Shown here: piece after piece, positions 594 through 64,000 of the stretch | How the letters are laid out: each line of letters opens with the position of its first letter | Numbering within the stretch: position 1 is the stretch's first letter | Assembly (NCBI GenBank): GCA_002189035.1 | Contig: NEEC01000012.1 | Location: 2,108,001 to 2,172,000, forward strand | Direction: 5' to 3' | Length of the DNA stretch: 64,000 bases | DNA from: Utricularia gibba | Taxonomy: Eukaryota; Streptophyta; Magnoliopsida; Lamiales; Lentibulariaceae | The notes under the pieces: generated by a model | The model's input: only the letters and a program-made list of their open reading frames with translations | Databases searched by the model: none | What the model was told of the DNA's origin: nothing | Position numbers and translations under genes: made by a program

Positions 594-2039
594 ATGGGGC
601 CTATCAGGAATAACAAGAAAAGGAAAATGGAGAAGAAAGTGGATGATAATTCTCTAGTTTCCGGGTCCTCGGAGGAGGATTTTACACAGTGGTGGGAAAC
701 TCTTTCAAAAACAGTTGCAGGTAATACATAAAATGTCTGTTTGCATGACAGCTCTGTACATGGCAGTCATCTATATCCATGTTCCTACTTATCCTGTTAT
801 GCCTCTGTTCTGTGATGGCTGCATTCCTGATCTGGAAAAATGAACAGGTTAGAATAGTATGGTTGCTTCTGTCTCGTTTTCCACATCAGTTGCATTTTCT
901 CCTTGCTCTAGCGGCTGCATGAGAAATGGATCCGAGTTGCATTCTGTCTTCCCCATTTACCTGAACTTCACTGCTCTGAAGTTCATTTCTTGCATTCTTG
1001 CAGGCGATCCATCGTGTTCACGGCCATTGGACCAGTTCAAAAACACCTTCCGGATGTCGAAAAAATGCTTCGATTACATCTGCTCACTGGTGAGGGATCA
1101 CATGATGGTTAAGACACACTTTGCCTTCTCAAACGGGAAGCTCATGTCACTGTATGATCAAGTGGCTTTAGCTCTCACACGCCTTGCTTCTGGTAACTCA
1201 TTGATCTCGATCGGCGACTCGTTCGGCGCGCACCATTCGACGGTGTCGCAGATCACTTGGCGCTTCGTTGAAGGCATAGAAGAGAACGGCCTCCGCCACC
1301 TCCAGTGGCCGTCATCGGAGCATGAAATGAGCAGAATAAAGCAGAAGTTTGAGAAAATCAGGGGCTTCCCAACTGCTGTGGTGCAATAGACACTACTCAT
1401 GTAACGATGCTGCTGACCTCTTCAGACCAAGAATCTGAAACCTGGCTGGATGAGATGCAGAACCACAGCATGATACTGCAGGCCATCGTTGGCCCTGATA
1501 TGAGATTCCTGAGTGTTGTCACTGGCTGGCCGGGAAAACTGAACGACTCCTCCGTCCTGCAGAACTCCAACTTCTTCAAACTCTGCGAAAACAGGCGGAA
1601 GCTCGACGGCCGGAAGATGCATCTGTCCCAGGAAACAGAGCTGGGAGAGTACATAATCGGGGACTCAGGGTTCCCACTCCTGCCATGGCTCCTCACCCCA
1701 TACCAAGGCAAGGATCTCTCCGAAAACGAAGCAGAATTCAACAAGAGGCTCCTCGCAACTCATGCCGTCTCCCAGAAAGCTCTAGTGAGGCTCAAGGACG
1801 TGTGGAGGATGATCCATGGCGAAATGTGGCGACCAGACAAGCATAAGCTTCCCAGATTCATCCTCGTCTGCTGCATTCTTCACAACATCGTCATCGAAAT
1901 GGATGGCGGAGATGACTTTCTCCCAGCACAGCAGCAGCAGCCGCAGCATGATCCTGGATACAGACAACAAGTGTGTGAAACCGTTGATAAAGCTGCGTTG
2001 CTTGTGAGGGACAAGCTGTGTATGTATTTTTCAGGATAA
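594..2039 (+). pseudogene. ALP1-like Harbinger-derived nuclease-fold gene, copy 1 (one-base frame break)
   Basis: Two exons, 594-720 and 1004-2039, joined by a GT-AG intron in phase 1. The protein begins MGPIRNNKKRKMEKK, a basic start typical of plant ALP1-like proteins, followed by a DDE_4 (Harbinger/HARBI1 class) core. The IDTTH motif carries the first acidic residue and the WPGKLNDSS region the second. Where active Harbinger transposases have their catalytic Glu, the sequence reads VSQKALVRLK, so Glu appears replaced by Gln. This matches domesticated ALP1-type proteins, which act with Polycomb-linked chromatin factors rather than as nucleases (family knowledge). The reading frame breaks at 1361-1364, where four G stand in place of the five at 15010-15014 in copy 2. 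With that base the length would be 387 residues, as in copy 2. The break may be a sequencing error. No terminal inverted repeats were found. Confidence 0.8.
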
Positions 2040-5000
2040 TGCAGCTCCCCACATCACAGTTCGAACATGGTTTTCAAAATTTTTACCAACAAATATTCGT
2101 TTTTTTTCAAAACGGTCGGGTCACCAGATGGTATGAACAAGAAAAATAGGAATTTTCAAATTTCAGATTATATTTAAAAGCCGAAATTTCAAAAACATAA
2201 GAAAATAATCTATAGTTTTTTATTTTTAAATATATTTATCCGTAATTACAAAATTTGAATATTACTTATTCTATATAATTTTTCAAAATATTTAATGGAT
2301 TGATTATTCATGCATAGAGTTGTACATGGATACTTGTCAACTCAAATATTTGTCGAGTTAACTTGTCATAAGTCTGACTCATTACCTCTAATCATAAAAA
2401 ATGGATATGGGATGGATTCATAATATACGAGTATGGATAGACTCGACGAATTAGACAAATTAGGCTGGAAATATAGTTAAACAACAAAAAAATGTATTTT
2501 TTTTATTAAATGAGTTGGATAATTCAATCAATTGATCAAGAACTTATGAATTAAATTTAATTTATGTTAGTATATATAAATTATATAGTGATCCGGATCA
2601 ACATGTTAGACCCATTGATCCGTATTTACCAAATCGAACTTATGCCCATCTCTAATTCATACATATTAATTTTTGGGCCCGAGGCCCAATACCATGTCAC
2701 TTAATTGTCGTTGCATCAAGTCCTAATGACCGAAAATCAGGGAATCAAGTTTCTCCTTCACTCGCTCTCACTTTTCGCAATCGAACATGGCGATCAAGCG
2801 AGGTTTACGTTTTTAAATTCTTCTGCATCTGATATTGAGGTTTTTTTGTTTGAATTTTTTTTCTATGATCTTGGGGCATGGATTATTTTGTTTTCCATTT
2901 TGTTAATTGTGATTGCTAATTTTTTATCGTCGTGTGAGGTCCTGTCGCATGCCAAGACGGCACCTGTGTCCCCTACGTCCGACGAAAAAGAAGTGAAACA
3001 TTTCCTGTTGTTATGATATCCAGTGTTATAATTTTGTTTCCGACATGTTTATCGGAGGAAGTGGGTCAGGCGAATTGCGACCCATGTCGCACACCAAGAG
3101 TATCTCCAAGGGCTGTATCTGTTGGGTGCTGAAATGTTTCCAGCAAGTTGGAAGTATAATTGTGTCGGGCCTGTGCTGTTGCTTGGTGAACCTAATGGTC
3201 ATGCGGTCTAGACAGGAGGCAGTTGAACCGAATCAGTTGTGGTATTGATATAGCAACGCCTGTGAGATCACTAGAAAGGGTGGGTGGGGATGGAAATTAT
3301 GTCTGAGTATAACCTCTGGTATTTTTCTGTGCAAGTTTTGCAGGTGTATGTGCAGTGTCACATACCAGAGGTTTGTATCTGTTTGGTGTTGAGGGAGAGT
3401 ATTGCACCTGGTTGCATACTCACAGTGAATTTCTTGAGAAATCTCAAGCTCATGAACTTTCCAATTTTCTTGATTTCACCTAGTAAATCTTTGCAGATGT
3501 TTGCTACATACTATACACACATTACACTTGTCTAAACACTACCATGTTTACACACCAGAAGGGCACAGGCGCCTTGGTCTCCAAGGACTTCAGCCATAAG
3601 GAATGCTCCCCTTTCCTCCTGAGATCGCATGCAACTCTTCCTAAGGAAGAGAGGTTGGTAAATCACACATCAAGATTGCAAATTTTACAGTTATGATTAA
3701 TCTCTTATATTTCAATATTGGATCCAAAATGTTACCCAAAATTCATACCAATGATATATAAATCTACTCCGCCCTCACCCCATTGATTCAATTCGTAAAG
3801 AATATTGTGTTTTTACAACTATTTTAAGAAATTATACCAAAAATATGCTGCAGCGAGGTGATTTGATTTGTACTGTAGGGGGACAGACAAAATTTACACA
3901 TGCCAAAATGAAATTAAAAAAAAACGTTTCACATGGTTTGTAAATAAAATTAGTTTAAAATTATACAACTCTTCTTATATTATAGCATTTAATATATTAT
4001 ATTATTATATAAAATATTATGATATAAATATGCTTTCAATATAAATTAAAAAATAATATAGCAAATACATCATTAAGTAAATTAATATATATTCAACATA
4101 CATCTAATTTCTAAAATGGATAACATTTGAGTGTATAAATGAAAGTGGTTGGATGCGACGTTTTACCGAACGGCCGGAAAAGGCCTCCCATCGACCCTCA
4201 TAAAAAACTTACCACTTGTGAATTCGGACACGTACACTTCATTACAATTAAATAAACCACAAATCCTTGTCAATGATTCATGTCTACCTTGTCCACATGC
4301 GACTTGTCCATTATTGCAATTATTTCAAATAAAATTTGTTTTTAATTGTCACACACACACAAAAATAAAATAAAATAAAAAACAGGGCGTACGCCACAGC
4401 CACTGATTACAACTCATTTTGTTGCACTAAAGTCCATCTTGCTTTTTTATCACAATAAAAATTTATCATTAGGATGAGTAAAATTATTACGATGAAATTG
4501 CGTCAAAAAATCCTGATATTTAATATTTTTATTGTTTTTAATATGAATAATGTATTTCATCCCAATTGATAAAATAGATCTTTGAAATATTGTGTATCGG
4601 GTATAATTAATTTCTAAATTTTTTGTCTTTAGTCATCACTGTTTGAATCCGAACATAACTAACCCCAATTATTCAATAAATTAAATTAAAATTAGTTGAG
4701 AACCAATTTTATCAAAATTTTAAAATAATTTAGGACTATTTATGTCGACTATTTCAAATATTGAAGACTAATTATATTAAAATAATAGATATTAAATTAT
4801 TTGAGACCAAATTTCTAAATCAAGAAGATCAATTTTTTAGTATTTTGAAATATTAAGGATTAATTATACTAAATTTTTAAATAATGGAAATAATAGTAAA
4901 GATAATTGTGTAAATTTTACAAATATTGGATATCAATGGATAACCCAAGTTATTACACATGAAAAGATGATCGATTAATTTTCTAAATTTCTTTCATTAT

Positions 5001-7888
5001 CATGAATACACTAATCAATATTAAGTTGAGCGCTAATTTGATATAAATTCCCACCATAGTCATTAATTAGAGTTTGTGTCATTATCATGATTACACTAAT
5101 CAATGTTAGTTGGGTTTTAAAACATTAATCATTCATTCTTAATTTTATGTGGGTTATGTTACAACCCCCAATCTCTATCTCCTCCTTTCAATTAAAATTA
5201 TATAGAAAATATTAGTTGGTATATTAAAATTTCACGTTTACTAAATGAGAAGAGATTTATTAAGGATTCGGATTTACCTAGTGTTTATATATCCTAATTC
5301 TACTTTAATATTTTTATGTTTCACTACTTCACTTTTTATTTATAATGTATAATGCAATTCTTCAAATAAAAAGTACTTGATCAATCAGATATTAAGTTTA
5401 AAATGAAGCAATCTTTTAAAGAAATAAAATTAGTCCGCAATGAATCAATATCTTTGCAATCCAATCTATAGAAATGATGTCATGCTTACAAAACAAAAAT
5501 AAAATGAAGGTGATAAATTATATTAAATACTATAATCAAATCTTGATTATTCTAAAATTTTTCTAAAACTCAAAGTAATAATATTATTCTTAAAATACAT
5601 TGCAACTATAATATTTATTAACTAGAATACTACTCTTCTCATATAGGTAGTGAGATAAATCTATTTAAAAGAAAATAATTATAATAAAAAATAGAAATTA
5701 TGGCTCAATTTTACTTTTTTTGGTCCATTATAAATAGATTGAACTCAATAGTATTCAAAGGCCAAATGAAATAAACGCCTCATATTCGAGAAAAAAATAC
5801 CTGGTGCATTACTCAAAATCTAATTTTTCAATAGATCAAACTTGATTCCTTAGTTACATGACCCGAAGATCTATGATATTACATCGTAGATCGAGGGTTT
5901 CAAATTCCTCAATACTTGAGTCTCATGTTTGTATATGTGGATTTAAAACAAGTTAATAAAATAATATATTATACATATAAGAGTATATTAGAGAATTCAT
6001 TTTTATATGTGGAATCTATACATAAACAATTCTAACAAACATATAAAATTGATAATTCTATATAATTGAACCCTATCTCCAAACATATATCTCATTCTAA
6101 ACCATTGTTTACATGATACAATAAAACTAAAATAATCTAAACCATTTTTATTTAAATCTACCTAACAAACATGGCCTAAGAATCTTATGATTCTTTAATA
6201 TTATTCATCTAGTGATGAGATCAAGTAAAATTAAAAAGTATCACTAGTCTTATTTGTGTGATCCTCATTCTCATTATCTTTTCTATCCGTATTCTCATTA
6301 TCCCTATTACAATATGAATAACATATTCAAATTGGACAAGCAAACACACAAAGTATCCATTGAATTAATAAAATTAGATATAAAAAAGAATCATTTATAA
6401 AATTTTCATCTATTGTTCTTATCTCAAACACTCCATCAAACGCTTTTTTTAATGGCAAGATTTTCATTAGTCTTTAAATAATATGTACAAATGAAAATGA
6501 TATGTTTAAAAAAAGAAAAATAAAAATGAAAGATTGTGAATGTGGATAATAATAGGAATTTTGTCTCAATGGTAAAAAATGGTTCAAATAATCGTATCAT
6601 TTACAAAAATGGCCACTTATACATCTTATCTCATATATTAAATTAAAAAATTTATATCATAAATAACCAATTCTTTCGCACAATATTTGAGATGAAACTT
6701 TTAATTCATTCTCAAATAATCACCTATATATGCACGTGTATTTCCCTTCATCAATTTTTGCATTCAATGAAACAATTATAATTGAACTGGTGTTATAAGA
6801 ATATTCATCTCCAAACACTAAATCAAATGCTAGTATAATGTTTCATGATTTCGTATTTATTATTAAAATAGGATTTAGAGGTAACATTAACGCATTAAAA
6901 CCATGACGTTGAGACAGCTGGACAACATAGGGGCAGATGGGAGTTAGAGGCTTTCCCATTAGCATTTAAAGTCAAATCGTGATGCATGCGCGCCAACACC
7001 TAACTACCTCCGTCTGTTGACTTTTTTTCTTTTTCTTTTTATTTACAAAAATAAGTGAAAACAAATTTTCATTTTTTTTTAATTTAAGCCGTTAATTTAT
7101 TTCACTATTTTCAAAATTAGTCAACAAATAGTAACAAGATAGGCTCTTTTCCTTATTATTTCGGTGATAATTTCGATTTATTGTTTTTATATTCTTTTTC
7201 TTTTTGGAAAAATATTGAGTCATTTTTATTTGAATTTTTCAAATGAGATCGATTGATGTGGGGGGGGGGGGGGGATAAAGAACTGGTCACAAATGTAGAC
7301 AATAATTCCAATTAAAATTGAGTTGAGGGCAAGAGATCCAAATATAAGATTGAAAAAATTACGTAGATAATCCATATTATTTTCTTAAATAACATACTAT
7401 TTTTAGTGTGTGATAAAACTAATCGTCGTATCTGTAAAAAGTTAATATTAATATGTGAGAGAGAAAGTCACCATGGTTAATTTTCTAAATGGTCCCATAA
7501 TTTATACTCAACAAATTATATTTATTTCTATTCAAATAGTGGGGATTACAAATATTGAAAAATAATGTTAAATTTTAAAAATTAAATATATTTATTGTAT
7601 TAAATAGTGAAAATTAATTATATGAACGAATATAAAGGTATAATTTTGATAAATAGTAAGAATGTTTGGCGCATTATTTTTGGAATAATGTGAAAATATA
7701 ATATAAATTATTGGGATTTATTATTCGGTTTTATGGCGCATCCGTAGCTCCATCGTGGACACTGTCGCTGCTTACAAATAAGCGCTCTTCAAACTTGCAT
7801 TTGCGTACCTCACGGCGGTGTTGGTCGTCTTCTACTTCTACCGCCGTCTCCTTCTTCTTCTTCTTCTGGGGAAAAGAAGATCGTGAAC
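2040..7888. other. AT-rich spacer between ALP1-like and KCS in unit 1
   Basis: No gene recognised. Segment 2719-3660 is conserved in all three units (near 9693-10545 and 16425-17480). It looks like the start of a former gene: a pyrimidine-rich leader, then ATGGCGATCAAGCGAG followed by GT, then GC-richer blocks encoding a short Cys-containing open stretch. I do not recognise the product. Segment near 4140-4400 (shared with 11020-11270 and 18300-18560) is another conserved block. The rest is AT-rich, with the KCS upstream region from about 6900. A 15-G run lies at 7260-7274. Confidence 0.55.
7260..7274 (+). repeat. Mononucleotide G15 tract upstream of KCS copy 1
   Basis: Fifteen consecutive G, about 615 bp upstream of the KCS start. 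The aligned position in unit 3 (near 21437-21442) has six G, so the run has expanded in unit 1 or contracted in unit 3 since the duplication. Long G runs are also prone to assembly error. Confidence 0.85.
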
Positions 7889-9501
7889 ATGGAGTTTCCA
7901 ATTGTTTTCGTTTACTCCATCGCTGCACTGCCCTTGCTTTATCTTGTATACAGATACTTCCACCGGAAAAGCGGTCGGAATTGTTACATACTTGACTACG
8001 AATGTCACAAACCGACGCCGGACAGGAAAGTGAGCTCCAAATTCTCGGGGGAAGTGATCCGCCGGAATAAACATCTCGGCATATACGAGTACAAATTCCT
8101 GTTGAAAGCTATCGTTAGCTCCGGCATCGGCGAAGAGACGTACTCGCCGCGGATGATGTTCGAGGGACGGGAGGCATCGGCGGAACTCGCCGACGCGTTA
8201 TGGGAGATGGACGAGTTCTTCCTGGACAGTATCGGGAAACTGTTAGACCGTACCGGGATCCCGGCGGCGGAAATCGACGTCTTGGTTGTTAACATCTCAA
8301 TGCTGGCGGTGATGCCATCGTTATCGGCAAGGATAATCAATTTCTACAAAATGAGACACGATGTGAAGGTGTATAATCTCACTGGAATGGGATGCAGCGC
8401 GAGCTTAATCTCGATTAACCTCGTGGAGAGCATTTTCAAGAATTTGGAAAACGTGAATGCTCTGATCGTGGCCTCTGAATCCCTATCCCTGGGATGGTAC
8501 TCCGGCTGCGACAGATCCATGCTTCTGTGTAACTGCCTTTTCCGATCCGGCGGATGCGCGATTCTTCTGACGAACAAACCGTCTCTCAAATCGAAAGCTA
8601 TGTTCAAATTGAGAAACCTAGTCAGAACTCACCACGGCGCCAGAGACGAATCCTACAATTGCTGCTTGCAATGCGAGGACGATAATGGAGCCACCGGATT
8701 TCATCTCGGAAAAGATCTTCCCAATGCGGCGACCAGAGCTTTCATCCACAATCTCAAAGAAATGGCCCCCAAAATCCTTCCCATCTCCGAACTAGTCCGT
8801 TTCATCCTCCTCCGATTACTCCACAAACGCAACAGCTGCGCCCCCAAACCCAAAATCAACTTCAAAACCGGAGTCGACCACTTCTGCCTCCATACTGGAG
8901 GAAAAGCCGTCATCGACGCCGTCGCCGAGAACCTATCCTTGACGGAATCCGACGTCGAACCCGCTCGAATGACGCTTCACAGGTTCGACAACATTCGGAT
9001 CCCATTTACAAGTGCTTATACTTCTATTTGTCGGTAAACCGGTTTGCAAAATAAAAAAAAAAAACCGCGAGATGATCATTTCATGGGTTCACCGCCGGCA
9101 ACTCACTCGTCGGAAGTTACTTGGATTACAGGTTCGGGAACACATCCGCCAGTAGCCTGTGGTACGTCCTCTCCTACATGCAAGCCAAAAAGAGGCTGAA
9201 AAAAGGCGACACGGTGCTGATGATCAGCTTCGGAGCTGGGTTCAAGTGCAACAGCTGTGCCTGGGAGGTGGTTCGGGATCTGGATGGGGAGAACACCGTC
9301 TGGAAAGAGTTCATAGACGAGTACCCGAAGCATGACCTGGGTGTCAACAACGCCTTCATTAGGAAATATGGGTGGATCAAGGATGAGGATCCGGATAGCT
9401 TCTGGTTCCCGGATGACATTGAGATCCCTGAGGATGACCAAGAAATCCCTGCGATCGTGGAGCACATCAAATCCTTGAGATCCAAAGCAAATCACCTGTA
9501 A
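7889..9501 (+). CDS. 3-ketoacyl-CoA synthase (KCS3/12/19-like), copy 1
   Basis: Condensing enzyme of the ER fatty-acid elongase, joining malonyl-CoA to long-chain acyl-CoA for waxes, suberin or sphingolipids. Exons 7889-8982 and 9132-9501 give 487 residues. ATG at 7889 is chosen because a hydrophobic anchor (residues 4-24) follows at once. The FAE1_CUT1_RppA domain follows with the triad Cys169 (GMGCSA), His335 (FCLHTGG) and Asn368 (HRFGNTS). His-Asn spacing is 33 residues, as in FAE1. Motifs such as [13 protein letters not shown] and [10 protein letters not shown] resemble the Arabidopsis KCS3/KCS12/KCS19 group. The 149-bp intron (8983-9131) splits the codon just before FGNTS, so the catalytic Asn is read only after splicing; read-through meets a stop at 9037. 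This is the intact copy of the pair. Exact substrate cannot be inferred. Confidence 0.9.
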
Positions 9502-13002: not shown

Positions 13003-13008
13003 ATGGGG
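12863..13008 (+). repeat. 98-bp-offset direct repeat of the ALP1-like leader
   Basis: The stretch from GAAACAATGG to ACTCATGGG occurs at 12863-12910 and again at 12961-13008, offset by 98 bp. Unit 1 has it only once (near 553-599). The first copy carries a spare ATG at 12905, out of frame with the gene start at 13003. It marks the joint where unit B was fused to unit 3. Confidence 0.8.
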
Positions 13009-15689
13009 CCTGTCAGGGATAACAAGAAAAGGAAAATGGAGAAGAAAGTGGATGATAATTCTCTAGTTTCCGGGTCCTCGGAGGAGGATTTTACACAGTG
13101 GTGGGAAACTCTTTCAAAAACAGTTGCAGGTAATACATAAAATGTCTGTTTGCATGACAGCTCTGTACATGGCAATCATCTATATCCATGTTCTTACTTA
13201 TACTGTTATGCCTCTGTTCTGTGATGGCTGCATTCCTGATCTGGAAAAATGAACAGGTTAGAATAGTATGGTTGCTTCTGTCTCGTTTTCCACATCAGTT
13301 GCATTTTCTCCTTGCTCTAGCGGGTGCATGAAAAATGGATACCAGTTGCATTCTGTCTTCCCCATTTACCTGAACTTTACTTTCTCTGAAGTTCATTTCT
13401 TGCATTCCTGCAGGCGATCCATCGTGTTCACGGCCATTGGATCTGTAATACCCCAGCTCTGGCCTCACGGTAGTATGGCAAGGGAGAAGGTGCTAGTTGG
13501 CGTGTGACATGACTAAACAGGTAATTGAGACCAGCAGGACCGAATTAGGGGCTATGGGGTATTCGGGCTAGGCCCGTCGGGCTTAAGTAGAGCACGCTAG
13601 GTCTAAGTAGGGTTTAACTAGTGCAAGGAAACCCTTGGGGGCGAGAGATCAGTGTCTTGGAAGGAAGGAGACGCACGCCCAAGGGAGGAAGGAGAGATCT
13701 TGCGCCAAGGAAGAGGAAAATCGTGCAAAGGTAAGGGCTTTATGGTAGAACTGTGTGGCGGGACAGATTTGGTGGAAGCTAACTTCGTGTGCGTAGATAC
13801 GGTCTTGATCTAGAAGTCCTCGTTGTGTGATCGAGGCACCTCGCTGTGTGATCGAGGGATAGTGAGCTACGGCGGGATTGGGGAGTGCACTCCCAATGGC
13901 AACGCGGCGAGGCCGCGGATGGTGATGCCATGTGAGCAATAAGCGGGGCCATCGAACTACGGTCATGACAGCAACACTGAGCACTTGTGCTCTGTGGGAA
14001 AGATGCCAAACCTGTGGGATTCTGTGTGGATAGATGCTTGGACTGATTACGAGAACAACGGAGATGCCTTGGATGGGCAGCACGTCGATACGAGAAGTTA
14101 CGGAGATGCCTCGCGGGGCAGCGTGTGGATAGTGTAGCGATACTTCGTGTGGATGGGAAACTTTGTGAATATGTGTAGTCTAGACTTAGGGAGGGAGCCG
14201 CGTGACATATGATTGACTCCCCTTACTCTTTCCTGTGTAGTCGAGGCGGGTGCAGCAGAGGCGGATGAGGAGTGAGGCGAGATCGATAGGAAGTGGGCTG
14301 ATAGCTGTGTGGCGAGGCTTGCTGCCTTATTTTCCCTTTTCGTGACTTAGTATTAGTTCCTTGCTGGTTGTGCTCGTTTTTCCCTTATGTTGTGACGCCG
14401 TGCGCCTAGGCTTGCTGCCTGATGTGGAACCTTGTTTTTGTGGCTTAATAAAATCTCTATTTCACTACTTGTGCTGTGTGATGAGTCTTGGCGAGGGGAC
14501 CTGGCGAGGGATGCCGCCAGGGATCGTCAGGTGCCAGGAGTGGCGGTGAGGTGAAGGAGCAATGCATCCTTAAACACGTTCCTAACCCACCCCATGATGA
14601 TCGGGACACCAAGGTTGAGTTGTTAGGTGTCGGTAATGACCTTAGCGTTTAGGGTGCAGGTCGCGGATCGTTACATTGGACCAGTTCAAAAACACCTTCC
14701 GGATGTCGAAAAAATGCTTCGATTACATCTGCTCACTGGTGAGGGATCACATGATGGTTAAGACACACTTTGCCTTCTCAAACGGGAAGCTCATGTCACT
14801 GTATGATCAAGTGGCTTTAGCTCTCACACGCCTTGCTTCTGGTAACTCATTGATCTCGATCGGCGACTCGTTCAGCGCGCACCATTCGACGGTGTCGCAG
14901 ATCACTTGGCGCTTCGTTGAAGGCATAGAAGAGAACGGCCTCCGCCACCTCCAGTGGCCGTCATCGGAGCATGAAATGAGCAGAATAAAGCAGAAGTTTG
15001 AGAAAATCAGGGGGCTTCCCAACTGCTGTGGCGCAATAGACACTACTCATGTAACGATGCAGCTGACCTCTTCAGACCAAGAATCTGAAACCTGGCTGGA
15101 TGAGATGCAGAACCACAGCATGATACTGCAGGCCATCGTTGGCCCTGATATGAGATTCCTGAGTGTTGTCACTGGCTGGCCGGGAAAACTGAACGACTCC
15201 TCCGTCCTGCAGAACTCCAACTTCTTCAAACTCTGCGAAAACAGGCGGAAGCTCGACGGCCGGAAGATGCATCTGTCCCAGGAAACAGAGCTGGGAGAGT
15301 ACATAATCGGGGACTCAGGGTTCCCACTCCTGCCATGGCTCCTCACCCCATACCAAGGCAAGGATCTCTCCGAAAACGAAGCAGAATTCAACAAGAGGCT
15401 CCTCGCAACTCATGCCGTCTCCCAGAAAGCTCTAGTGAGGCTCAAGGACGTGTGGAGGATGATCCATGGCGAAATGTGGCGACCAGACAAGCATAAGCTT
15501 CCCAGATTCATCCTCGTCTGCTGCATTCTTCACAACATCGTCATCGAAATGGATGGCGGAGATGACTTTCTCCCAGCACAGCAGCAGCAGCCGCAGCATG
15601 ATCCTGGATACAGACAACAAGTGTGTGAAACCGTTGATAAAGCTGCGTTGCTTGTGAGGGACAAGCTGTGTATGTATTTTTCAGGATAA
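13003..15689 (+). pseudogene. ALP1-like gene, copy 2, split by a solo LTR
   Basis: Same gene as 594-2039. Exon 1 is 13003-13129 and exon 2 starts at 13414, but after 28 bases it is interrupted by the LTR element at 13442-14675; coding resumes after the duplicated TTGGA. With the insertion removed, 127 + 28 + 1009 nt is a whole number of codons (387 residues), and the five-G run at 15010-15014 keeps the frame that copy 1 loses. The DDE_4 core is complete, with IDTTH, WPGKLNDSS, GEYIIGDSGFPLLPW and Gln in place of the last catalytic Glu. The insertion falls about 50 codons into the protein, so a full product is not expected; a shorter protein from a promoter in the LTR is conceivable but unsupported. 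Confidence 0.8.
13442..14675 (+). mobile_element. Solo LTR of a retrotransposon inside ALP1-like copy 2
   Basis: A 1.23-kb GC-richer block present here and absent from the empty site in unit 1 (near 1029). It is flanked by TTGGA on both sides (13437-13441 and 14676-14680), a 5-bp target-site duplication. The LTR body begins TGTAATACCCC (13444) and ends GATCGTTACA, giving the TG...CA ends and the TGTAA/TTACA short inverted repeat common in plant Gypsy-type LTRs. Two extra bases (TC) lie between the target duplication and TG. AATAAA at 14447-14452 may be the LTR polyadenylation signal. No gag, protease or polymerase coding is present, hence solo LTR. The Gypsy assignment is inference from the ends only. 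Confidence 0.8.
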
Positions 15690-22025: not shown

Positions 22026-23637
22026 ATGGAGTTTCCAATTGTTTTCGTCTACTCCATCGCTGCTCTGCCCTTGCTTTATCTCGTGTTCAGATACTTCCAC
22101 CGGAAAAGCGGTCGGAATTGTTACATACTTGACTACGAATGTCACAAACCGACGCCGGACAGGAAAGTGAGCTCCAAATTCTCGGGGGAAGTGATCCGCC
22201 GGAATAAACATCTCGGCATATACGAGTACAAATTCCTGTTGAAAGCTATCGTTAGCTCCGGCATCGGCGAAGAGACGTACTCGCCGCGGATGATGTTCGA
22301 GGGACGGGAGGCATCGGCGGAACTCGCCGACGCCTTATGGGAGATGGACGAGTTCTTCCTGGACAGTATCGGGAAACTTTTAGACCGTACCGGGATCCCG
22401 GCGGCGGAAATCGATGTCTTGGTTGTTAACATCTCAATGCTGGCGGTGATGCCATCGTTATCGTCGAGGATAATCAATTTCTACAAACTGAGACACGATG
22501 TGAAGGTGTATAATCTCACCGCAATGGGATGCAGTGCGAGCTTGATCTCGATTAACCTCGTGGAGAGCATTTTCAAGAATTTGGAAAACGTGAATGCTCT
22601 GGTCGTGGCCTCTGAATCCCTATCCCTGGGATGGTACTCCGGCTGCGACAGATCCATGCTTCTGTGTAACTGCCTTTTCCGATCCGGCGGATGCGCGATT
22701 CTTCTGACGAACAAACCGTCTCTCAAATCGAAAGCGATGTTCAAATTGAGAAACCTTGTCAGAACTCACCACGGCGCCAGAGACGAATCCTACAATTGCT
22801 GCGTGCAACGCGAAGACGATAAAGGAATCATCGGAATTAATCTCGGAAAAGATCTTCCCAAGGCGGCGACCAGAGCTTTCATCCACAATCTCAAAGAAAT
22901 GGCCCCAAAATCCTTCCCATCTCCGAACTAGTCCGTTTCATCCTCCTCCGATTACTCCACAAACGCAACAGCTGCGCCCCCAAACCCAAAATCAACTTCA
23001 AAACCGGAGTCGACCACTTCTGCCTCCATACTGGAGGAAAAGCCGTCATCGACGCCGTCGCCGAGAACCTATCCTTGACGGAATCCGACGTCGAACCCGC
23101 TCGAATGACGCTTCACAGGTTCGACAACATTCGGATCCCATTTACAAGTGCTTATACTTCTATTTGTCGGTAAACCGGTTTGCAAAATAAAAAAAAAAAA
23201 CCGCGAGATGATCATTTCATGGGTTCACCGCCGGCAACTCACTCGTCGGAAGTTACTTGGATTACAGGTTCGGGAACACATCCGCCAGTAGCCTGTGGTA
23301 CGTCCTCTCCTACATGCAAGCCAAAAAGAGGCTGAAAAAAGGGGACACGGTGCTGATGATCAGCTTCGGAGCTGGGTTCAAGTGCAACAGCTGTGTCTGG
23401 GAGGTGGTTCGGGATCTGGATGGGGAGAACACCGTCTGGAAAGAGTTCATAGACGAGTACCCGAAGCATGACCTGGGTGTCAACAACGCCTTCATTAGGA
23501 AATATGGGTGGATCAAGGATGAGGATCCGGATAGCTTCTGGGTGCCGGATGACATTGAGATCCCTGAGGATGACCAAGAAATCCCTGCGATCGTGGAGCA
23601 CATCAAATCCTTGAGATCCAAAGCAAATCACCTGTAA
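22026..23637 (+). pseudogene. 3-ketoacyl-CoA synthase (KCS3/12/19-like), copy 2 (one-base frame break)
   Basis: Nearly identical to copy 1. ATG at 22026, exon 1 to 23118, the same 149-bp intron (23119-23267), exon 2 to 23637. Exon 1 is one base shorter (1093 versus 1094): at 22903-22906 there are four C where copy 1 has five, and the frame then ends at 22931 after about 300 residues, before the catalytic His and Asn. Downstream coding sequence, including exon 2, is still well conserved, so the lesion is very young or a consensus error. Cys is present in AMGCSA (copy 1 has GMGCSA). Other differences cluster around the THHGAR-SYNCC region. If the missing C is an artefact this is a second working KCS of 487 residues. 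Confidence 0.85.
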
Positions 23638-30364: not shown

Positions 30365-32370
30365 ATGTGCATCGCCCACACCCATAGCCTTCTCTCTCTA
30401 AGAAGTTCCCTCCATTCTATTCGAAGCCTCTGCATTGCCTCCAAGAGCATCCGCTGTTCAGCGAGTAAAGCTTTTAAAATTCGTCTGTTGTGGTTTTCTT
30501 CAATTGTATGATTGCAGTTTTATTTCTGTTGTAGAAATGGAGCCAAAATCATTGACGAAGCTCTTGCTTTGCGGAAAATCAAGTGAGGAAAGAGAAGTGG
30601 CTCGATTCATGAAGACCAGCAACTCATTCAAACTCTCAGATGGTTCTGCAATTGACTTTGTTCTGTATCAGGAGAACGAAAACCAAGAAAACATTGATAG
30701 TGACGATGCTTTTGTGATAAAATTGTACATGGATCGTTTATCATCATCTGTTTTTGGAAAGTTTCTCCTTTATGCTCCCAAGTTACCTTCCACACAGGAT
30801 GTTGTTTCAAAGTAGGATTTTTTTTCTCAAACATTCATTATTTCTCAAGATGAAGTTTGCTAGATACATAATACTATTGCTTGAGTCTGATCATTTCTTG
30901 CTCTTCTGATATTTTTATTTGGGTAGTAATTTTGATGGGTTGCCCGTCGGTGCTGTTTGTGTTACTGACGTGCAGTTTAATGGAAGAGGTATTAGAATAA
31001 GCATATTTTTCTTCTGGATTGCTATGTTTCTTTCAGTTATTTCACCTTGTCCATATCTTGGTGTTTCAAGGTCGGACAGGAAATGCTTGGGAATCTCCAA
31101 AGGGATGCCTTATGTTTTCCTTCACAATGCAGATGGAGGATGGCCGAGCCGTCCCCTTTGTTCAGTACGTAGTTAGTTTAGCTATGACCGAGGCACTTAA
31201 TGATCTTTGTCAAGAAAAAGTAGGTCTTGCAATGGCATTCATATGTGAAACTTGACTATTTTTGAAACTCATATTTGATCCTCTGCACGATATTTCAGGG
31301 GGCGGCCCCCTTAATGTTAGAATAAAGTGGCCAAACGATCTTTACCTTGATGGCTTGAAAGTTGGTGGGATTCTGTGCACATCTACATACAGGTCTAAGA
31401 AGTTCAACGTTAGTGTTGGTAAGGGATGAAGACATGTCTCAGTTGTCTGAGCAATGCTTGCTTCTAAGCTTTGGGATGTTTCTTCTTGTTTATGGCACCA
31501 ACCTAGGAATTGGCTTGAATGTGGATAATCAAATGCCCACGGTATGCTTAAATGGTTCTCTGGAACGGGCTGGTGCTACTTGCAGATTACGACGTGAAGA
31601 TATCATGGCTGCTTTTTTCAACAAATTTGGACAGTTGCATGATGTATTCATAAATCAAGGTGATGTTTTCCTTCACTAAGCCGGGCATGCCCGTTCCTTT
31701 GCGATAAGACTCTCCTCAAAGTTAGTTGTTCTTGACAGCAGGTTTTCAGGCACTGGAAACTCTGTACTGTGGGACTTGGCTACACAGGTGAGAAATTTGT
31801 TTTGTTTTGTAGTAAGAATACTCTCCTGAAGGACCACATGTTGTAATGTCAAGAAAAGATTCGTTGGTTTAGCAATGAAGAGTGTGATATCTGGTCACGT
31901 ACAACTCTGTGGTTTAGACAAGTTTCATCACCGTTATGCAGTGGACAACGAGTTATCATAGAGGAGAAGGATGAGAATCTGGGAGAAATTTCTCATAATG
32001 TGGTCACAATCCAAGTAAATGACTGCAACCAAAACTGCCTCTTGGTTCTTCCCTGGAGGTGTTAATGATGAAAGGCCTTTTGTGTGCTTACAGGGATTGA
32101 CTGCATCAGGTTTTCTCTTGGCTGTTGGTGAAGATGGTCAGGCGTTTGAACTTCACCCTGATGGAAACAGGTACTTGCAAGTGCTGCTGATCTCCCAGTG
32201 ACTCAAATCTTAGCATCGTTATGTAATTCCTTAACACATGGTGATGAAACAATTCGACAGGAGAGACATAGAGAACTACTCTCTGCTAATGCTGATGAAT
32301 AAGTGCTGCTTTATGTGATTTCAGGTTTGATTTCTTCCAAGGACTGATCAGAAGAAAGGTTCCCTTGTAA
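30365..32370 (+). CDS. HCS1: Biotin-protein ligase / holocarboxylase synthetase
   Basis: Attaches biotin to carboxylases such as plastid acetyl-CoA carboxylase and mitochondrial methylcrotonyl-CoA carboxylase. Ten exons: 30365-30464, 30535-30811, 30927-30988, 31071-31219, 31299-31418, 31507-31659, 31742-31787, 31942-32014, 32094-32170, 32325-32370. The start at 30365 gives an Arg/Ser-rich organelle presequence; a second ATG at 30538, inside exon 2, could make a cytosolic form. Seen motifs: GRGRTGNAWESPKGCLM (biotinyl-AMP loop), KWPNDLYLDGLKVGGIL (catalytic core), GIGLNVDN, and the C-terminal GLTASGFLLAVGEDG. Exon 4 ends in phase 0 but exon 5 starts with GGGGCGGCCCCC one base short of frame. 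With one more G the total is 367 residues, as in the Arabidopsis protein from memory. Everything else is intact, so I read this as a probable consensus error and keep it as a gene. Confidence 0.88.
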
Positions 32371-36904: not shown

Positions 36905-39900
36905 TCAATACTCTGCATCGGCTGTGAAATCTGGCTCTGGTGGCTTCTGAAGTTTTACCAGCTCCCTTGCACTCTTGAGATTCCGGTTCCGGTGAACTCC
37001 ACGGAGGGCGTTTGCCGCAAACTTGGATGCAAGGAAAGCAGCTCCGATGCTATAGGAACCTCCACCGATATTGCTACTGGACCAGACAAGTCCTCTCCTT
37101 CCTCCTCCCTCCGCCGCATTGTAAAGAGTTTCCGTTTAACATACCGTCTCCAAGCAGCTTGGATGAAGCATGCTGCCCAAGTTCGCCATTGTTGTGAGTA
37201 AAACCGGAATGTGTGCTGCACCTGTCGACTGTGCAGCCGCCTGAATTGCCCAGCAACAAACTTGAGCTCGTCTGCTGTGAGAGCGAAGGCCTCCACCTCT
37301 GTTGGGGCCTTCACTGTTCGAGTAGAAGATGGGAGGCTTGCACCAGATTTGGGATCTAGAGCCCACGTAAGAAGCTCTTCTCCACAGAAGTCACCTTCCT
37401 TCAGCAGGCTGCGGTTGAAGAAACCACTTCTTCCACCGTCTGTTGTCACACTCTCAAGCCGACCACGTATTAAGAATATCATTTCGTCGACCGGATCACC
37501 TTCCCGGACGAGATAAGTGTTCTCTGTAAACAGGCAAGGCTTGAGCCGTTCACATATAGCATCAAGCAACCGCTCATCCATGTTCTCAAAGAGTGGTACC
37601 TGAAAAACCAGTGAGCACAAGGACTCAACTCAAGTTCCTAAAACAGGACTGTTCACAAGGTTGCCATTACTGTTTCAGAGATGGAAAGGAATACATAACA
37701 TGGCCTGTATCAAACTTCACCACCAAGTTCAGAACAAGAAGAAAAAGTGAGCAAGCGAAGCAGAGCAATTACCCTCTTGACCAGAGCCAAACAGAGATGG
37801 CGCTTTATGTCTCTCCGTAGATCCTTAGGCAGACTCTGGACTATGCTTTGCTCGTCAACTCCACGCGTTTCTAACCACTTATACTGGTCATAGCGCCTAA
37901 CACGGTCCCTAAGTTCTGAAGGAAGTAAGCGATGGTGCATCCATTGCTCAGAGTCACGCCTCTTAACTCTCATCTCTTCAAGTCGAATTGTTAACGACTG
38001 AAGGTAAGTCTGTAGCATCAGTAATAAAGAGCAAGTTACTTAGCAAGGCCATGCTCATCAAGGATATCCCCTCCTCAAAAGAAGAAATAAAATAAAATAA
38101 TCACATTCAGAAATGAATGAGGTGACAATAGGTCTCATTCATCATTTTAGGTTGGGAGATGAGGCTGTGCAGCTGGCAGAGCCACCACGTCGATCATTAG
38201 TCTTGTTGGAGTTTTACGATAGTTTATAGTTATCTATCTATCTGGTGTATTTAGAGACACAAACAATGGCTAACTTTCTAGAAAAGTTATGTCGATTGTT
38301 TCTATACTACATAGATTACTTCTCAGTTACCTGCATATTTCCAATCAAGAGAGCAAACAGAATAAGACCAACGATTGCGAGTGCAATGCTGAACAGAGTC
38401 TCTCCGACAAAAGTGCTGGTCTGAAGTCCTTGCCCAAGAGTACTGGAGGGGAAAAGGGTTCAAGGAACGTCTTAACTTTCAAGAGGTTAGTGGAATGGTC
38501 ATACAGCACTCGAATATAGTGAGATGGGAGTGAAGGGAAGAACGATGGTGAAAGAAATCAATGCTGATAGAGTACCTTAGATTCTGAAGCCCCCACCAAA
38601 GGCAATAACAGTACTTGGACAAAAAGATTCTGGATGAAACTACGCCAGATGACAATGCCTGTTTGAAGATGCCAAAATTAAATGGCAGGTTATCATCGCC
38701 ATTCACAGGACAAGCTGAAGATATAACAGAATCGCTAATGTTGCTCCAGATATTGTAGCCATCTATATTTTGATTTCCGCAATATAAGAAGTCTGTGCGG
38801 CAGCTTTGATTGCGTTCACAAGCTTTCTGCCAACAATAGTCATTACGCTCCACGGATAACAAGTACCAAAATGCTCCAACTATCTGCACAACACAGCAGA
38901 GATACAGTGTGACTTACGGACAGAACGAATGCAAAAAAAAAAAAAAAAAGGAATCTTAGCGAATTAAAAGTCCTACCAAGAAACTCATACTTGATGGCCT
39001 TTGGATTTGTGTTTTAAGATTTCACAATCATTTTAAAAATATATCTACATTGTGCAATCGCTTTTAAAATTTCTAAATATTTTGCAATCATTTGAAAAAA
39101 AACTTGGAAATAGTTTCAAGTGAGAAAATGAATTCAGAGGAGCGAAGATGAACAATGTACACCTGCAGAACAAGCTAAAAAGAAATGGCCAGAGAAAGCG
39201 AAGCTTACATGACTGGCAAGCATATATAGCAGCAGATAAGACACAGCACCAGCCCATGCGGTTTCAGCAAAAACACCAGAAGTTCTCTTCAGTTCTGATG
39301 AAAGTGGAAATATTCGTGCAAATCTTGGAACATATTGGACCAAAATTATAATCAATAATGCTCGTTTGGTAGCCAGAACATCTGAGCCTCTCGATTCCCT
39401 CAAAAACTTCCAAACAACCATCTGCATGAACAAAAGGTGTCAAACAATGCAGTTGAAAGTTATCAGAGGTTTTTATAAACTTAAGTGATGAATACTAAAC
39501 TGCAAATAAAATTAATTGCCCGAAAAAATGCATAGGAACATAGTAAATATTAAAAGAAGTTCATGTAAGAAAGCACTCATCCCATAGGCAGAAGAGTGAT
39601 GTAACTTGAAAAGGTTTCTCAAACCTGTGGAAGGGGAAGCACCGAGAGGAAATCAATGATGAAATAATATTTCAAGTATCGTTTAGCAATCCGTTTAGGA
39701 TCTATGACGAGTTCCCCTCGACCAAACACCCGAGAAGATGGGGCAATGTAAGCAGTTCGAAACTGGAGGACCATGTGAATAAGGTAAAATGCATCAATAG
39801 CTGTACGGAGGGTTGTGGCTGTGATTGCCAACTTTCTATCAATATCCAGGCAGTGTGATGACTGATCAAAGACAGGAAGATAGAAAAAGAGGGGATCAAC

Positions 39901-42316: not shown

Positions 42317-42624
42317 CTATTTCGCGGGGCGGGTATTTTCCGGCGTGGCGGTGCCGGTGGCGACCCTGGCGACATCCATGGCGGTTGCCTCCGGCTTCTT
42401 CTTCGAATACAACGTCAAATATCCGATTAATCCGGTGAACAAAAACCCGCCGATCGCCAGCCGCGCCGGGCATATGGGAATCCTGCCGCGCTGGTGGAGC
42501 ACCTCCGTGCTGTGCTTCGCCGCGGAAGCGGGCCGTGGCTTTCCCTGGAATCCGCCTTCCGGTTCTCCGGCAGGCCATTCCGACTTCCCCCACCTTGTCC
42601 TTCAACGTTTCCCTGTGCAACCAT
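42317..42624 (-). CDS. Small single-pass membrane protein, plant-specific (unnamed family)
   Basis: Minus strand, single exon, about 102 residues if one base is added to the five-base run at 42587-42591. N-terminal part MVAQGNVEGQGG from ATG 42624-42622, Gly/Pro-rich middle, then STEVLHQRGRIPICPARLA, a hydrophobic segment (AIGGFLFTGLIGYLTLYS) and a C-terminal tail KKPEATAMDVARVATG ending in ENTRPAK. I recall such short proteins with VxHQRGR...KKPEA...DVA..T in many plants but no function. As given, the start frame and the C-terminal frame are not continuous, and the start frame ends early. A TATA box (42681-42688) lies 57 bp upstream of the start, supporting this strand over the overlapping plus-strand open frame. 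Confidence 0.6.
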
Positions 42625-42680: not shown

Positions 42681-42688
42681 TATATATA
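42681..42688 (-). promoter_or_regulatory. TATA box of the small membrane protein gene
   Basis: TATATATA read on the minus strand, 57 bp upstream of the ATG at 42624. This spacing fits a short leader of about 25-30 nt. Confidence 0.6.
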
Positions 42689-43342: not shown

Positions 43343-45354
43343 ATGAGCAAGGGACCTGGCCCTTTTTCTGAAATTGGGAGGCGTGCAAGAGGTAGCCGTA
43401 AAACTCACCTCGCAGATTTGGCTTAGTTGGGTGGATTTTGTTGAGATTGACGTGAAATTCGTTGTCATTTCTTTAGTTACAAGTTCCTCAGAAATCGAGA
43501 TAAAACATCGGACCATGTAAACTTTTCAAACTAATATTGGTAACAGTTTTCCATCATTTAGTTTACTAAAATCCAAAGATGGAGGAACTGCTTCACTTAA
43601 GAAAAATATGAGTACTTTTGTCCAACAATTTTTTTCCGGCTGTGTAACTATTGGGTTACATTTGCAGCAGCGTAGTTGATTCACAAAAATTGATGTAGCA
43701 TGTGTTTATAAGTTTTAAAATACGTTTTGAAGCTTTTTCCCTGATTTCCTCCCTTTCGTAACGCAGATGTTTTGACAAAGGATTACAATTATGATCAGAA
43801 GTTCTCTGTCTCGATTCCAAGTTCCACTGGCATGGTATTTTGATGCACAGCTTTGTTTCCACCCTGATCTACATAGCCATTATTCCGGCACAATCAATGT
43901 TTTCTGGCATTACACTTTGGCTACTGAATTGCTTCAGTCCATGATGCATTGAGATGTTTTGATGATGATGATAAATGTGTTTCCTTTTGGAGTCCGTTGC
44001 TGATGTCTTTTGCATGTGATTTAACACACACGTTTTAACTATCATAGGGAATTACGGCAACTGGGATAAAGAAGGATCAGATCTTTTTTGGTGACCTGAA
44101 TTTGCAGCACAAGGGTGAGAAAACTACAGTTGATGTTAAAGTTTACACTTACTCCAGTGTAAGGAGCAGTTCTACTATGATTTGATCGCATATTTTACTT
44201 CTTTTTGGGTTTGCTTGCTTTTATTATTCCCTCCTTGACGAATTGTCCTTTTACTTACTCTTTCATGGTATTGTCAAAACTAAATCACTGGTGCCATGGC
44301 CTTTTAGGTTACAACAAAGGTGACTTATGACATTTCGGATGGTGCAAAAGCGGCTGTTAGTTTCACTGTACCTGATCACAAGTCTGGAAAGGTAAATTCG
44401 GATGGAGCTATATAATGAGGTTGTGAATTCTGTGTTTGGTAGTCTAGTATTCTTTCGAGGATTTTTCATTACTTGTATTTTCTCTTTCAGCTTGAGGTGA
44501 ATTATCTTCACCCTCATGCTGCATTCAATTCTTCCATTGGGCTGAATCCAAGTCCTCTCCTCGAAGTTGCTGCTGCAATTGGTTCCAAGGATATGTCCAT
44601 TGGTGGGGAGGTTGGGTTTGATACCTCCAGTTCTTCTTTCACCAAATACAATGCTGGGTTAGGCTTTAACAAGCCAGACTTTTCTGCAGCTCTTATCCTG
44701 TAAGCACCTGTATTCATTCTTTTATACCTTTTTCCCTTCGCAGAAATATCAATTTTAGTAATAAAAAGGTGAAACCCGTAATTATGGAATAAAATCCAAG
44801 CTTTGTTGCTGTGTTTATTCTTTCACTGGCGTATGGCACTTCCATATTGTCTTAAATTTCAATATTATTCTTTAGTCCACTTTAATGCCGATTTCAAAAC
44901 TGTTCCTCCAGTTTCGCCTACAGAAAATTTGTGATTCGGGATGCTTTTACCGGAAGTTGATATATCCATCACCCCTGTATCATCTCCTTCGCCTCCTATT
45001 GCTACTATAGTTGAAGTTAATCATGAAAGACTTGTGCCACTTTTGTAGGAGCGACAGGGGGCAAACACTGAAGGCCTCATATGCCCATTTGATCAACCCC
45101 TCCACTGGAACCGAGGTTGCCGCCGAGATGGTGCACAGGTTATCCAGTTTTGAGAACAGCTTCAGTGTGGGAAGCATTCACAGGGTCGACCCTCGCACCC
45201 TCGTCAAGACCCGATTCTCCGACGACGGCAGGATTGCCGTGTCAAGCCAACACGAATGGCGTCCCCGATCACTTGCAACCTTCTCAGCCGAATACAACAC
45301 CAAGGAGAGCAATGCCGCCCCAAGTTCGGGTTCTCCATTGCTCTGAAGCCCTGA
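43343..45354 (+). CDS. Mitochondrial outer membrane porin (VDAC)
   Basis: Voltage-dependent anion channel, a 19-strand beta-barrel for metabolites and ions in the mitochondrial outer membrane. Six exons: 43343-43391, 43767-43834, 44048-44158, 44308-44391, 44491-44699, 45049-45354; total 275 residues against the usual 276. The start MSKGPGPFSEIGRRARD matches the plant VDAC N-terminal helix; further signatures are LTKDYNYDQKFS, GEKTTVDVKVYTYSS and QHEWRPRSLATFS. At 45318-45321 a four-C run is one base short: the given frame ends at 45346 with PSSGSPLL, while one more C restores KFGFSIALKP, the conserved final beta-strand and sorting region, stopping at 45352-45354. A probable consensus error; otherwise a normal gene. 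Confidence 0.9.
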
Positions 45355-53224: not shown

Positions 53225-53230
53225 TATAAA
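53225..53230 (+). promoter_or_regulatory. TATA box of STIG1 gene b
   Basis: TATAAA within GATATAAACCTCCTCCCACC, 58 bp before the chosen ATG. A nearly identical block stands before STIG1 gene c. This argues against the upstream in-frame ATG at 53213, which lies before the TATA box. Confidence 0.65.
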
Positions 53231-53287
53231 CCTCCTCCCACCAACCTCAGTTTGATCACAGCTGCAGCCATTATTACATCCAGTAAG

Positions 53288-53901
53288 ATGATGAAGATGG
53301 TCATAATTCTGCTCCTCTTCTCGGGGTTTGCGGCGCTCGTGGTCGTGATTCCGCACCTCAGATCGGAGATTCGAAATCTGCAACGACGCTTCGGAACTGT
53401 CTTTCGGAAAGAACAAGGTGAAAAGGAACACAAGGAGTTGCAAATCCAGGGTATGAAGATGCAGTTTTCCTTGTGTGATTTCCCACGATTCCCACCTTTT
53501 TTTGGTCTTCAAGATGTGTGTTTCTACTAAAAAGAAAACATTTTTTTGTGTTCTTAGAAAAAATTGTGCCTGGAAGTTGGGAGCCTGCGATACGGCTGCC
53601 GGAATCCAGATTCAAAGCGAGGAATGTGACGAAAAGAAGGGAGATCAAAGTCAGCAAGAAGAAAACGCGATGCACACTGCCGGCGGGAAAGGGAATCATC
53701 TGCAGCAACGTATGCGTTAACACGAACTCCGATCCGTCCAACTGCGGAAGCTGCGGCAAGAAGTGCCGGTTCCGGTGGCTCTGCTGCGGTGGTAAGTGCG
53801 TCAACGTTATGAAGGAGACGAAGCACTGCGGCACATGCAATCATACAAAATGCAAGACGTGTGTCTTTGGAATGTGCGATTATGCACATGGAGACGAGTA
53901 G
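53288..53901 (+). CDS. STIG1-like cysteine-rich protein (gene b)
   Basis: Exons 53288-53417 and 53558-53901 join in phase 1 at the same site as gene a and encode 157 residues. MMKMVIILLLFSGFAALVVV is a signal peptide or anchor, followed by a basic stretch with NLQRRF and KVSKKK. The C-terminal STIG1 domain has 14 cysteines: RCTLPAGKGIICSNVCVN, NCGSCGKKC, LCCGGKCVNV, HCGTC, CKTCVFGMCDYAHG. The protein is expected to be secreted. It is closer to gene c than to gene a. An AT-rich intron of 140 bp separates the exons. No lesion seen. Biological role (stigma, exudate or cell-wall signalling) is inferred from the family only. Confidence 0.88.
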
Positions 53902-59731: not shown

Positions 59732-59737
59732 TATAAA
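59732..59737 (+). promoter_or_regulatory. TATA box of STIG1 gene c
   Basis: TATAAA within GATATAAACCCCTCCCACCA, nearly the same as before gene b; the ATG is 74 bp downstream. Confidence 0.65.
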
Positions 59738-59810
59738 CCCCTCCCACCATGCTCTCTGTCAATCCATCTCAGAACACAACAAGCAAACCCTAAGAAGGAA
59801 ACAGCCCACA

Positions 59811-60537
59811 ATGAAGATGCTGCAGGTTCTATTGCTGCTCGTCGCGTTTGCTGCAATCGTCGTTGTGATTCCGCTGCTCGAGAGGGAGTCTCGGCATCTG
59901 CAACGGCACTACAAAGTTGTGGAAACCATGATCCAACATGAACAAGGTTTCTGCCCACCCTTTGATTCTTTCTCTTGGGGCAATCTGCGATTCGATTGCT
60001 CGTTTTGATCCTGGATCGAAGAAGAGTAAGATGGTTTACAAGGGTGAGGAGAATTACTATGGGAATCGATTCCGTTTAATCTCATCCTCTTGTATGCTAT
60101 CTTCCTGTTCTTCATGCGAATCCTTGTGCTGCTTTCCCTTTTCAATCAGAATACAATGCGACCCACATAGACATATTTACAGAAGGAGATGTATGCTAAC
60201 AGTATGCCTCGTAATTTTTCCAGAAAATTTTATGAATGAAGCTCCGGAAGAAGCTGCGAGGGAGCTACTGGAATCGGAAGGAGGACGAAGGATACACAGA
60301 AGGAGGCGATGCAAACTCCACCACGGAGGGAAGGGGACTGTCTGCAGCAACAAATGCGTGGACACCAACTCCGATCGGCTCAACTGCGGCCACTGCGGCA
60401 AGAAGTGCCATCTCCACTGGCTTTGCTGCAAGGGAAAGTGCGTTAACGTGTTGAGAGATACGAAGCACTGCGGCACCTGCAACCGAACAGTTTGCCGCAC
60501 ATGCGTTTTCGGGATGTGTGACTACGCGAAAAGATGA
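59811..60537 (+). CDS. STIG1-like cysteine-rich protein (gene c)
   Basis: Exons 59811-59946 and 60224-60537, phase-1 joint, 149 residues. MKMLQVLLLLVAFAAIVVVI is the signal peptide or anchor, then a basic linker with HLQRHYKVV and RRIHRRRRC. The STIG1 domain has 14 cysteines: CKLHHGGKGTVCSNKCVD, NCGHCGKKC, LCCKGKCVNV, HCGTCNRTVC, CVFGMCDYAKR. Gene b and c share start, intron position, leader and domain wording, so they are a direct duplication, later separated by or spanning the oppositely oriented tetraspanin gene. The 277-bp intron is GC-richer than that of gene b. No lesion seen. Confidence 0.88.
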
Positions 60538-62551: not shown

Positions 62552-63027
62552 TTCGGCGATTCTGATCCCGTTCTCCGATAAATCCCCCGCCTAGCTACAA
62601 ATTCGATTCGGCTCCGAGATCAAAAAGCGGCGGTGGGCGGGGACTCTGCTAGTCTGCTGCCGTGGCCATCATTCGGCCGCATGCAATTTCTGGTTCCATT
62701 TTTTTGTTGGTAAGTATATAATTTCTGGTTCCATTTTCATATTTTTTTATAATTTCTAATCAATTTAATAAATTTAAAAATCAATCTGCCTCAAAATTAA
62801 TATCATATTAGACTATAAACTCATGTTAATATTCATATTATGCTTTTGGGTTTTTTATTCTTTGATTATTGCTATAATTAAATATTAACTAGTAAAATGA
62901 ATAATAAAAACATTAAAAATAATTTAATTAATTTTTCTAATAACAATAATTATTTATCGGAATATACTTAATATTTTGAAATATTAACTACTATTTTAGT
63001 TAACATTTTTTATTCATGATATTTAAT
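62552..63027. other. Intergenic between J-protein start and GDSL esterase end
   Basis: 62552-62700 is the GC-richer leader and promoter of the J-protein gene. 62740-63027 is AT-rich with no feature seen. Confidence 0.5.
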
Positions 63028-64000
63028 TTAAAATATAATATTTCCATATAACAGGCTGCAGTCTGCAGCTGCCAAAACGGCCGGTGCGAGAAAATGGAAG
63101 AACCGAGCGTTGGCGGCCTGTGTGAAATGGTAGCCATCCCAGCTGATGTACTGCCCCGGATTAGGGCAAACCGGAACTCCCGGTCCGCCGCAAAATCCGG
63201 GCTTGGTAACGTCGTACTCGTAGGTGCCGCAGCACTGGTGCACGGCAGTGCTCACATTGATCCCTGTCAAAGCAGTTTCGTGTTTAATAATTACTGACGT
63301 TCTCTTTTTTTTACAAGGGAAGAGAGTAATTCTGAGTTACCGTAGAGGGGCGCAGAGAGGAGGAAGAGCTGGAAGGTGTTGTAGTTGTCTAAGTAAGTGA
63401 CCTTGGCATCGGAGAATGCCACGGGCAGTGTTGCAATGGCATGCTGCAGGAGGCTGTTTAGGAGGATTGCAACTCCGTTCACAGCCTCGCTGCACCCGTA
63501 CTTATTGCGTAGGAAAGCGTTGGCACTGGAAGCGGCGCGGGGAGTGCATCCTATCGGAAATAAACCGGGAACTATGATCTTGGATGCCCCAGCGATATCA
63601 GTTCCTGTTCACAGGAAGGTGAATCAGAAGATCAGGCACGGTGGGTTTTCTCGTTTTCAATTCTGGATGCAGAATGCTTATTTATGTTGATGGTTTTCCT
63701 GCAGAAACTTTACCTTGACACCATCAAGGATGGCTTGAACAATGAAAGGAAGCAAAGCTTCAGTCTGTTCCATCGTCTTGTTTGCAAAGACTGCGAAGTT
63801 GATATCGTTCACACCGAATTCACCAAAGTAAAACAAAGAACTTCTCAACTTGTCCCTACACTCTGCAAAGTTGATTCGATATTGTCGAACGTTGTTACTG
63901 GGAATCACAATTGAGAAACATTCTGAATGAAACCTGATTCAGTGGAGCAAAGTGATCCAAGGTGGTCCTTAAACCACCCTAATTGATGGGAGAGGTCTGG
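63028..64000 (-). CDS. GDSL esterase/lipase, 3' part (5' end outside window)
   Basis: Secreted SGNH-fold hydrolase. Visible exons (minus): 63934-64000 (partial), 63714-63862, 63341-63604, 63028-63263. The first holds QLGWFKDHLGSLCSTES, the second FGEFGVNDIN (block III, the GxND motif with the oxyanion Asn), the third IIVPGLFPIGC (block after III) and the last VHQCCGTYEY and SWDGYHFTQAANA (block V, catalytic Asp and His). The Ser of block I lies beyond the window. Exon 63341-63604 needs one extra base at the four-base run 63587-63590 to continue the frame from exon 63714-63862 (giving ELISLGASKIIVPG); as given it hits a stop. A likely consensus error. The sequence resembles acetylajmalan-esterase-type GDSL proteins. 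Substrate unknown. Confidence 0.82.

Follow-up and report, generated by a model that had tools for sequence, protein, structure and literature searches.

Single-base omission at homopolymers has been described in genomes assembled from long reads. In the tal genes of Xanthomonas, a nine-G run was affected by the omission of one base; frameshifts left by Quiver at a G homopolymer mostly disappeared when the consensus was re-run on newer-chemistry data (PMC4853030). For long-read-only assemblies, a further report gives homopolymer-length errors as the commonest residue (PMC8812927). The assembly of Utricularia gibba was made with HGAP from about 88x PacBio and has an N50 of 3.4 Mb (PMC5793159). 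In a literature search, no statement on base errors in this assembly was found.

We analysed a window of 64,000 nucleotides (G000:C244:2108001-2172000) in an assembly of 100.09 Mb and 516 contigs. A preliminary description of the window had reported eight genes that each miss one base, and had ascribed this to consensus error. Around each of the eight sites, the frames of both strands were read and the pieces were matched to Pfam. Paralogs were searched for in the whole genome, using as queries the six sites other than ALP1-like and KCS. Judged from the sequence, the plant almost certainly has intact versions of the broken-looking genes in the window, and the assembly has dropped single G or C bases, which would make the breaks a sequencing artefact rather than biology.

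Frame breaks in the window

Five of the eight genes (ALP1-like, KCS, VDAC, CNGC and tetraspanin) each have a second copy in the genome that keeps the frame and carries one extra base. Their sites and two intact controls are given here in window coordinates:

1361..1364, plus strand: ALP1-like copy 1 (Harbinger-type, DDE_Tnp_4), frame break in a G run
7883..9037, plus strand: KCS copy 1, intact control at the site, a single 384-aa frame spanning it
14676..15689, plus strand: ALP1-like copy 2, intact control, a single 337-aa frame (DDE_Tnp_4, 1.3e-30)
22903..22906, plus strand: KCS copy 2, frame break in a C run
37050..37135, minus strand: CNGC C-terminus, -1 somewhere in the linker, near 37075
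45318..45321, plus strand: VDAC (Porin_3), -1 within the last ten codons
55934..55938, minus strand: tetraspanin, -1 in a coding-strand G run

ALP1-like copy 1 has a run of four G at 1361, and its tandem copy 2 has five at 15010 and is in frame; apart from this run, about two codons differ between them. The KCS pair presents the same picture with C, four in copy 2 at 22903 and five in copy 1 at 8766, which is in frame. The VDAC protein matches Porin_3 up to position 265 of 271, and its homeolog on contig C213 (83%) has one extra base at the site and an unbroken frame ending NAAPKFGFSIALKP. For tetraspanin, the Pfam Tetraspanin match extends to position 103 of 225, after which the frame changes; the paralog on C213 (71%) again has one extra base at the site and remains in frame. 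The CNGC homeolog on C213 (85% identical) has no frame break. For this gene the preliminary description had placed a short G/C run at 37074-37076: the letters there are CTA, the break is not at a G/C run of four or five, and the base that is missing from the window and found in the homeolog adjoins a short GG.

The ALP1-like and KCS pairs belong to a tandem duplication of ~14 kb (window 500-24000), with an identity of 93-97% in coding and 79-95% in non-coding sequence and a third partial copy of some stretches. On C213, the CNGC and VDAC paralogs are neighbours (C213:2056429-2070621). Because they lie close together there, as in the window, the pair suggests a homeologous block from genome duplication.

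For the other three genes, the whole-genome search found no DNA-level paralog:

31299..31303, plus strand: HCS1 (biotin protein ligase), start of exon 5, possible -1
42587..42591, minus strand: small membrane protein, likely -1 just past the start codon, in a coding-strand G run
63587..63590, minus strand: GDSL esterase, -1 in a coding-strand G run

The GDSL esterase has a Lipase_GDSL match downstream of the site. Its canonical donor (AAG/GTAAAG) and acceptor (CAG/GAACTG) lead to ELISLG, followed by ASKIIVPG one base out of frame, and by this anatomy the frame is clearly shifted by -1. The small membrane protein, which has no Pfam match, is encoded by a conserved-looking frame of 94 aa that lacks a start codon after the preceding stop; the nearest ATG lies upstream, behind a TATA-like sequence, one base out of frame, and a -1 break is likely. 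In HCS1, the exons on either side of the site match BPL_LplA_LipB. Splicing at the donor AAAAA/GTAGGT would result in -1, and the break is ambiguous because a second donor a few bases downstream (GTAG/GTCTTG) would preserve the frame at the cost of one residue.

The claim of eight genes at -1 is therefore firm for six, five by their second copy and GDSL by its frame and exon anatomy, while the small membrane protein is likely and HCS1 ambiguous; HCS1 is also counted among the seven breaks that had been assigned to G/C runs of four or five. The minus strand carries four of the genes (CNGC, small membrane protein, tetraspanin and GDSL). STIG1-like genes are also present in the window (48902-49688, 53518-53901 and 59938-60537), one stretch having two tandem STIG1 domains.

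Direction and sequence context across the assembly

A whole-genome search for GRAS genes, which are mostly intronless, returned ~25 loci with a single frame over the full domain and ~16 split between neighbouring frames. In four of the split genes the break falls at one shared conserved motif, every time within or next to a run of C or G. KCS genes have a split-frame pattern like that of GRAS, and intact family members carry longer runs. We aligned 80 loci (46 GRAS and 34 KCS, 90 kb of aligned codons) as DNA to in-genome protein profiles, using a frameshift-aware alignment with equal cost for -1 and +1. The loci were taken from whole-genome family searches, in part picked among the best matches, and three of the GRAS loci represent a single place in the genome. 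Breaks close to an intron or a gap were discarded, as were compensating pairs; close -1/+1 pairs in L062, L082 and L084 were taken as alignment effects and excluded.

The alignments yielded 24 isolated breaks, of which 20 were -1, two were +2 (the same frame class) and two were +1. With 22/24 breaks in the -1 frame class, the direction is one-sidedly that of loss. Locus L067 was scored as +1, and its intact duplicate shows bases missing instead. The KCS locus L059 (profile column 464) has a clean +1 in the context TTCCAAGTG and is the only break not explained by missing bases. When a broken codon was scored as zero instead of by the symmetric -1/+1 score, some breaks were set beside the run rather than inside it, and the direction of the result was unchanged. 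It had been stated that the window holds no gain of a base and no break at an A/T run, and neither was met in the window genes examined. Genome-wide, the absence of gains is not absolute, since the one +1 case at L059 exists, and a few deletions lie outside runs.

In HSP70, UDPGT, S8 and Exo70, where the break class was derived manually from the coordinates, as the difference between starts or between ends modulo 3, all breaks without room for an intron (12/12) were of the -1 class:

HSP70: one each on C304, C451, C496 and C1, and two on C255
UDPGT: two
S8 peptidase: two
Exo70: two

The P450 and UDPGT tables were rejected as a source of breaks; most of their splits were introns of ~60-80 bases, and no more than two UDPGT pairs could be used.

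The 22 breaks of the -1 class were then compared with positions drawn at random from the same coding sequence. Of the 22, 12 had a G/C run of at least four within 9 nt, against 2.0 expected, and seven had a run of at least five within the same distance, against 0.29 expected. None of 3000 random draws matched the observed count at either run length. By contrast with this excess, A/T runs of at least four were found near one break versus 2.8 expected. The breaks are thus concentrated at homopolymers, and more strongly at longer ones, for G/C runs, and their pattern exceeds chance. In the DNA examined, G/C runs of five, six and seven were rarer than under an order-1 model (ratios of 0.79, 0.86 and 0.35), and A/T runs of these lengths showed no such deficit; the G/C deficit fits error and is not proof of it. 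The density is approximately one break per 4 kb of GC-rich coding sequence, a rough figure because the loci are partly best-match picks and three of them are copies of one place.

Pseudogene marks and redundant contigs

If the breaks were real, there would be many young pseudogenes in a plant that has undergone whole-genome duplications and whose mutation spectrum favours deletions, which we consider very unlikely. Small plant genomes are regarded as prone to deletion, real one-base deletions are more numerous than insertions, and the paralogs of VDAC, CNGC and tetraspanin could cover for a lost copy. However, finding 22/24 breaks in one frame class has a probability of 0.012 even if 70% of real indels fell in that class. 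A/T runs, which are commoner and longer, have no excess of breaks, and for three of the window genes (HCS1, GDSL and small membrane protein) the genome has no DNA-level paralog. Stops, moreover, are nearly absent: only 4 in-frame stops occur in the 90 kb of aligned codons versus 24 isolated breaks, and stops have not accumulated as in pseudogenes. In DELLA pairs whose members are both broken at one shared motif or right next to it, dN/dS downstream of the break was 0.19, 0.12 and 0.15, compared with 0.28, 0.12 and 0.06 upstream in the same pairs; selection is not relaxed downstream. Real pseudogenes would have drifted, and the low downstream dN/dS in both pair members speaks against them.

Copies of the same DNA on different contigs disagree by missing bases rather than by substitutions. 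One GRAS locus occurs three times, intact on C422 (L025) and broken at the end of C414 (L067) and the start of C416 (L077). Over 0.9-1.2 kb, the three copies show 0 substitutions and 5 gaps, all of them bases missing from the broken copies; relative to C422, one broken copy has four such events and the second has one. This three-contig comparison is the strongest internal test. Between C316 and C412, 4.1 kb of sequence contains 1 substitution and 10 gaps, every gap being in C316. Since these copies are located at contig ends, close to them or on a small contig, both comparisons reveal the mode of error and not its rate in contig interiors. Coverage may be low at the ends of C414 and C416, where the broken GRAS copies sit, and C316 may be partly an allele of C412, as it is diverged from it elsewhere. 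Beyond the 4.1 kb, C316 and C412 consist in part of repeats at 92% and in part of sequence at 99.4%; this is not one clean duplicate and was left unused.

The presence of the GRAS locus three times at contig ends also implies unmerged overlaps in the assembly and therefore inflated gene counts. Redundant contigs were observed at C241 versus C304 (HSP70) and C376 versus C413 (P450), where small contigs are 100% identical to parts of large ones over 1.7-2.0 kb (L093-L096); being identical, these pairs were uninformative on the breaks.

Origin of the breaks and known systems

Some apparent breaks might represent misread gene structure, namely alternative splice sites, short introns or upstream starts. 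HCS1, with its frame-preserving second donor, is such a candidate, and several loci, since excluded, did show false breaks in the automated alignments because of introns. This explanation could account for HCS1 and perhaps for the small membrane protein, but not for the whole set; ALP1, KCS, VDAC, CNGC and tetraspanin were settled by comparison with in-frame copies, and misread structure is extremely improbable as the answer. We find it scarcely credible that the plant germline truly loses single bases from short G/C runs at a high rate, the genes being expressed via paralogs or RNA-level correction. That the plant itself restores the frames, through programmed ribosomal frameshifting or by inserting a base at G/C runs in the RNA, can be virtually dismissed: a common kind of motif (the G/C run) and a conserved downstream frame are all that speak for it, whereas copies of the same locus occur with and without the missing base at zero substitutions, intact members of the same families have longer runs, and we know of no such process in plant nuclear genes.

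We conclude that the breaks are very probably errors of the assembled consensus, in which a base would be missing at short G/C runs across the assembly from genes that are intact in the plant. The consensus-calling step would undercount short G or C homopolymers and lose one base, more frequently as the run lengthens, and at roughly one site in every 4 kb of GC-rich coding sequence throughout the assembly. The cause may be long-read consensus calling (probably PacBio, with HGAP/Quiver) without short-read polishing. Undercounting at G/C runs would account for the direction, the base, the run-length dependence, the spread over unrelated genes, the conservation of frames past the breaks and the duplicated contigs. 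The preliminary description's reading as consensus error is supported by the one-sided -1 direction, its link with G/C runs, its occurrence across the genome, the lack of pseudogene-like decay and the substitution-free duplicates. Against it stand the ~88x PacBio coverage of U. gibba (PMC5793159), at which errors are usually sparser, at least one +1 break (L059), and the location of the broken GRAS copies at contig ends together with the possibly partly allelic nature of C316.

At least one false-looking break was present in 20/80 GRAS and KCS loci, about a quarter, some of them partial or duplicate. The assembly thus misleads calls of gene loss, pseudogenes, gene counts and selection, and, in a lineage noted for losing genes, claims of gene loss drawn from it should first be backed by reads.

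The breaks resemble processed or fractionated pseudogenes that follow genome duplication in that frame-broken genes have a paralog elsewhere in the genome. They differ from these in lacking stops and relaxed selection, in their one-sided direction and in their bias to G/C runs. With errors of long-read consensus (PacBio CLR with HGAP/Quiver, and nanopore) they share the omission of single homopolymer bases that splits genes into two frames (PMC4853030, PMC8812927; Kastor, PMC12007338). Unlike the usual errors of this kind, the runs in U. gibba are short (four to seven) and almost only of G or C, A/T runs of equal length are spared, and the density is high, at ~1 per 4 kb of GC-rich coding sequence.
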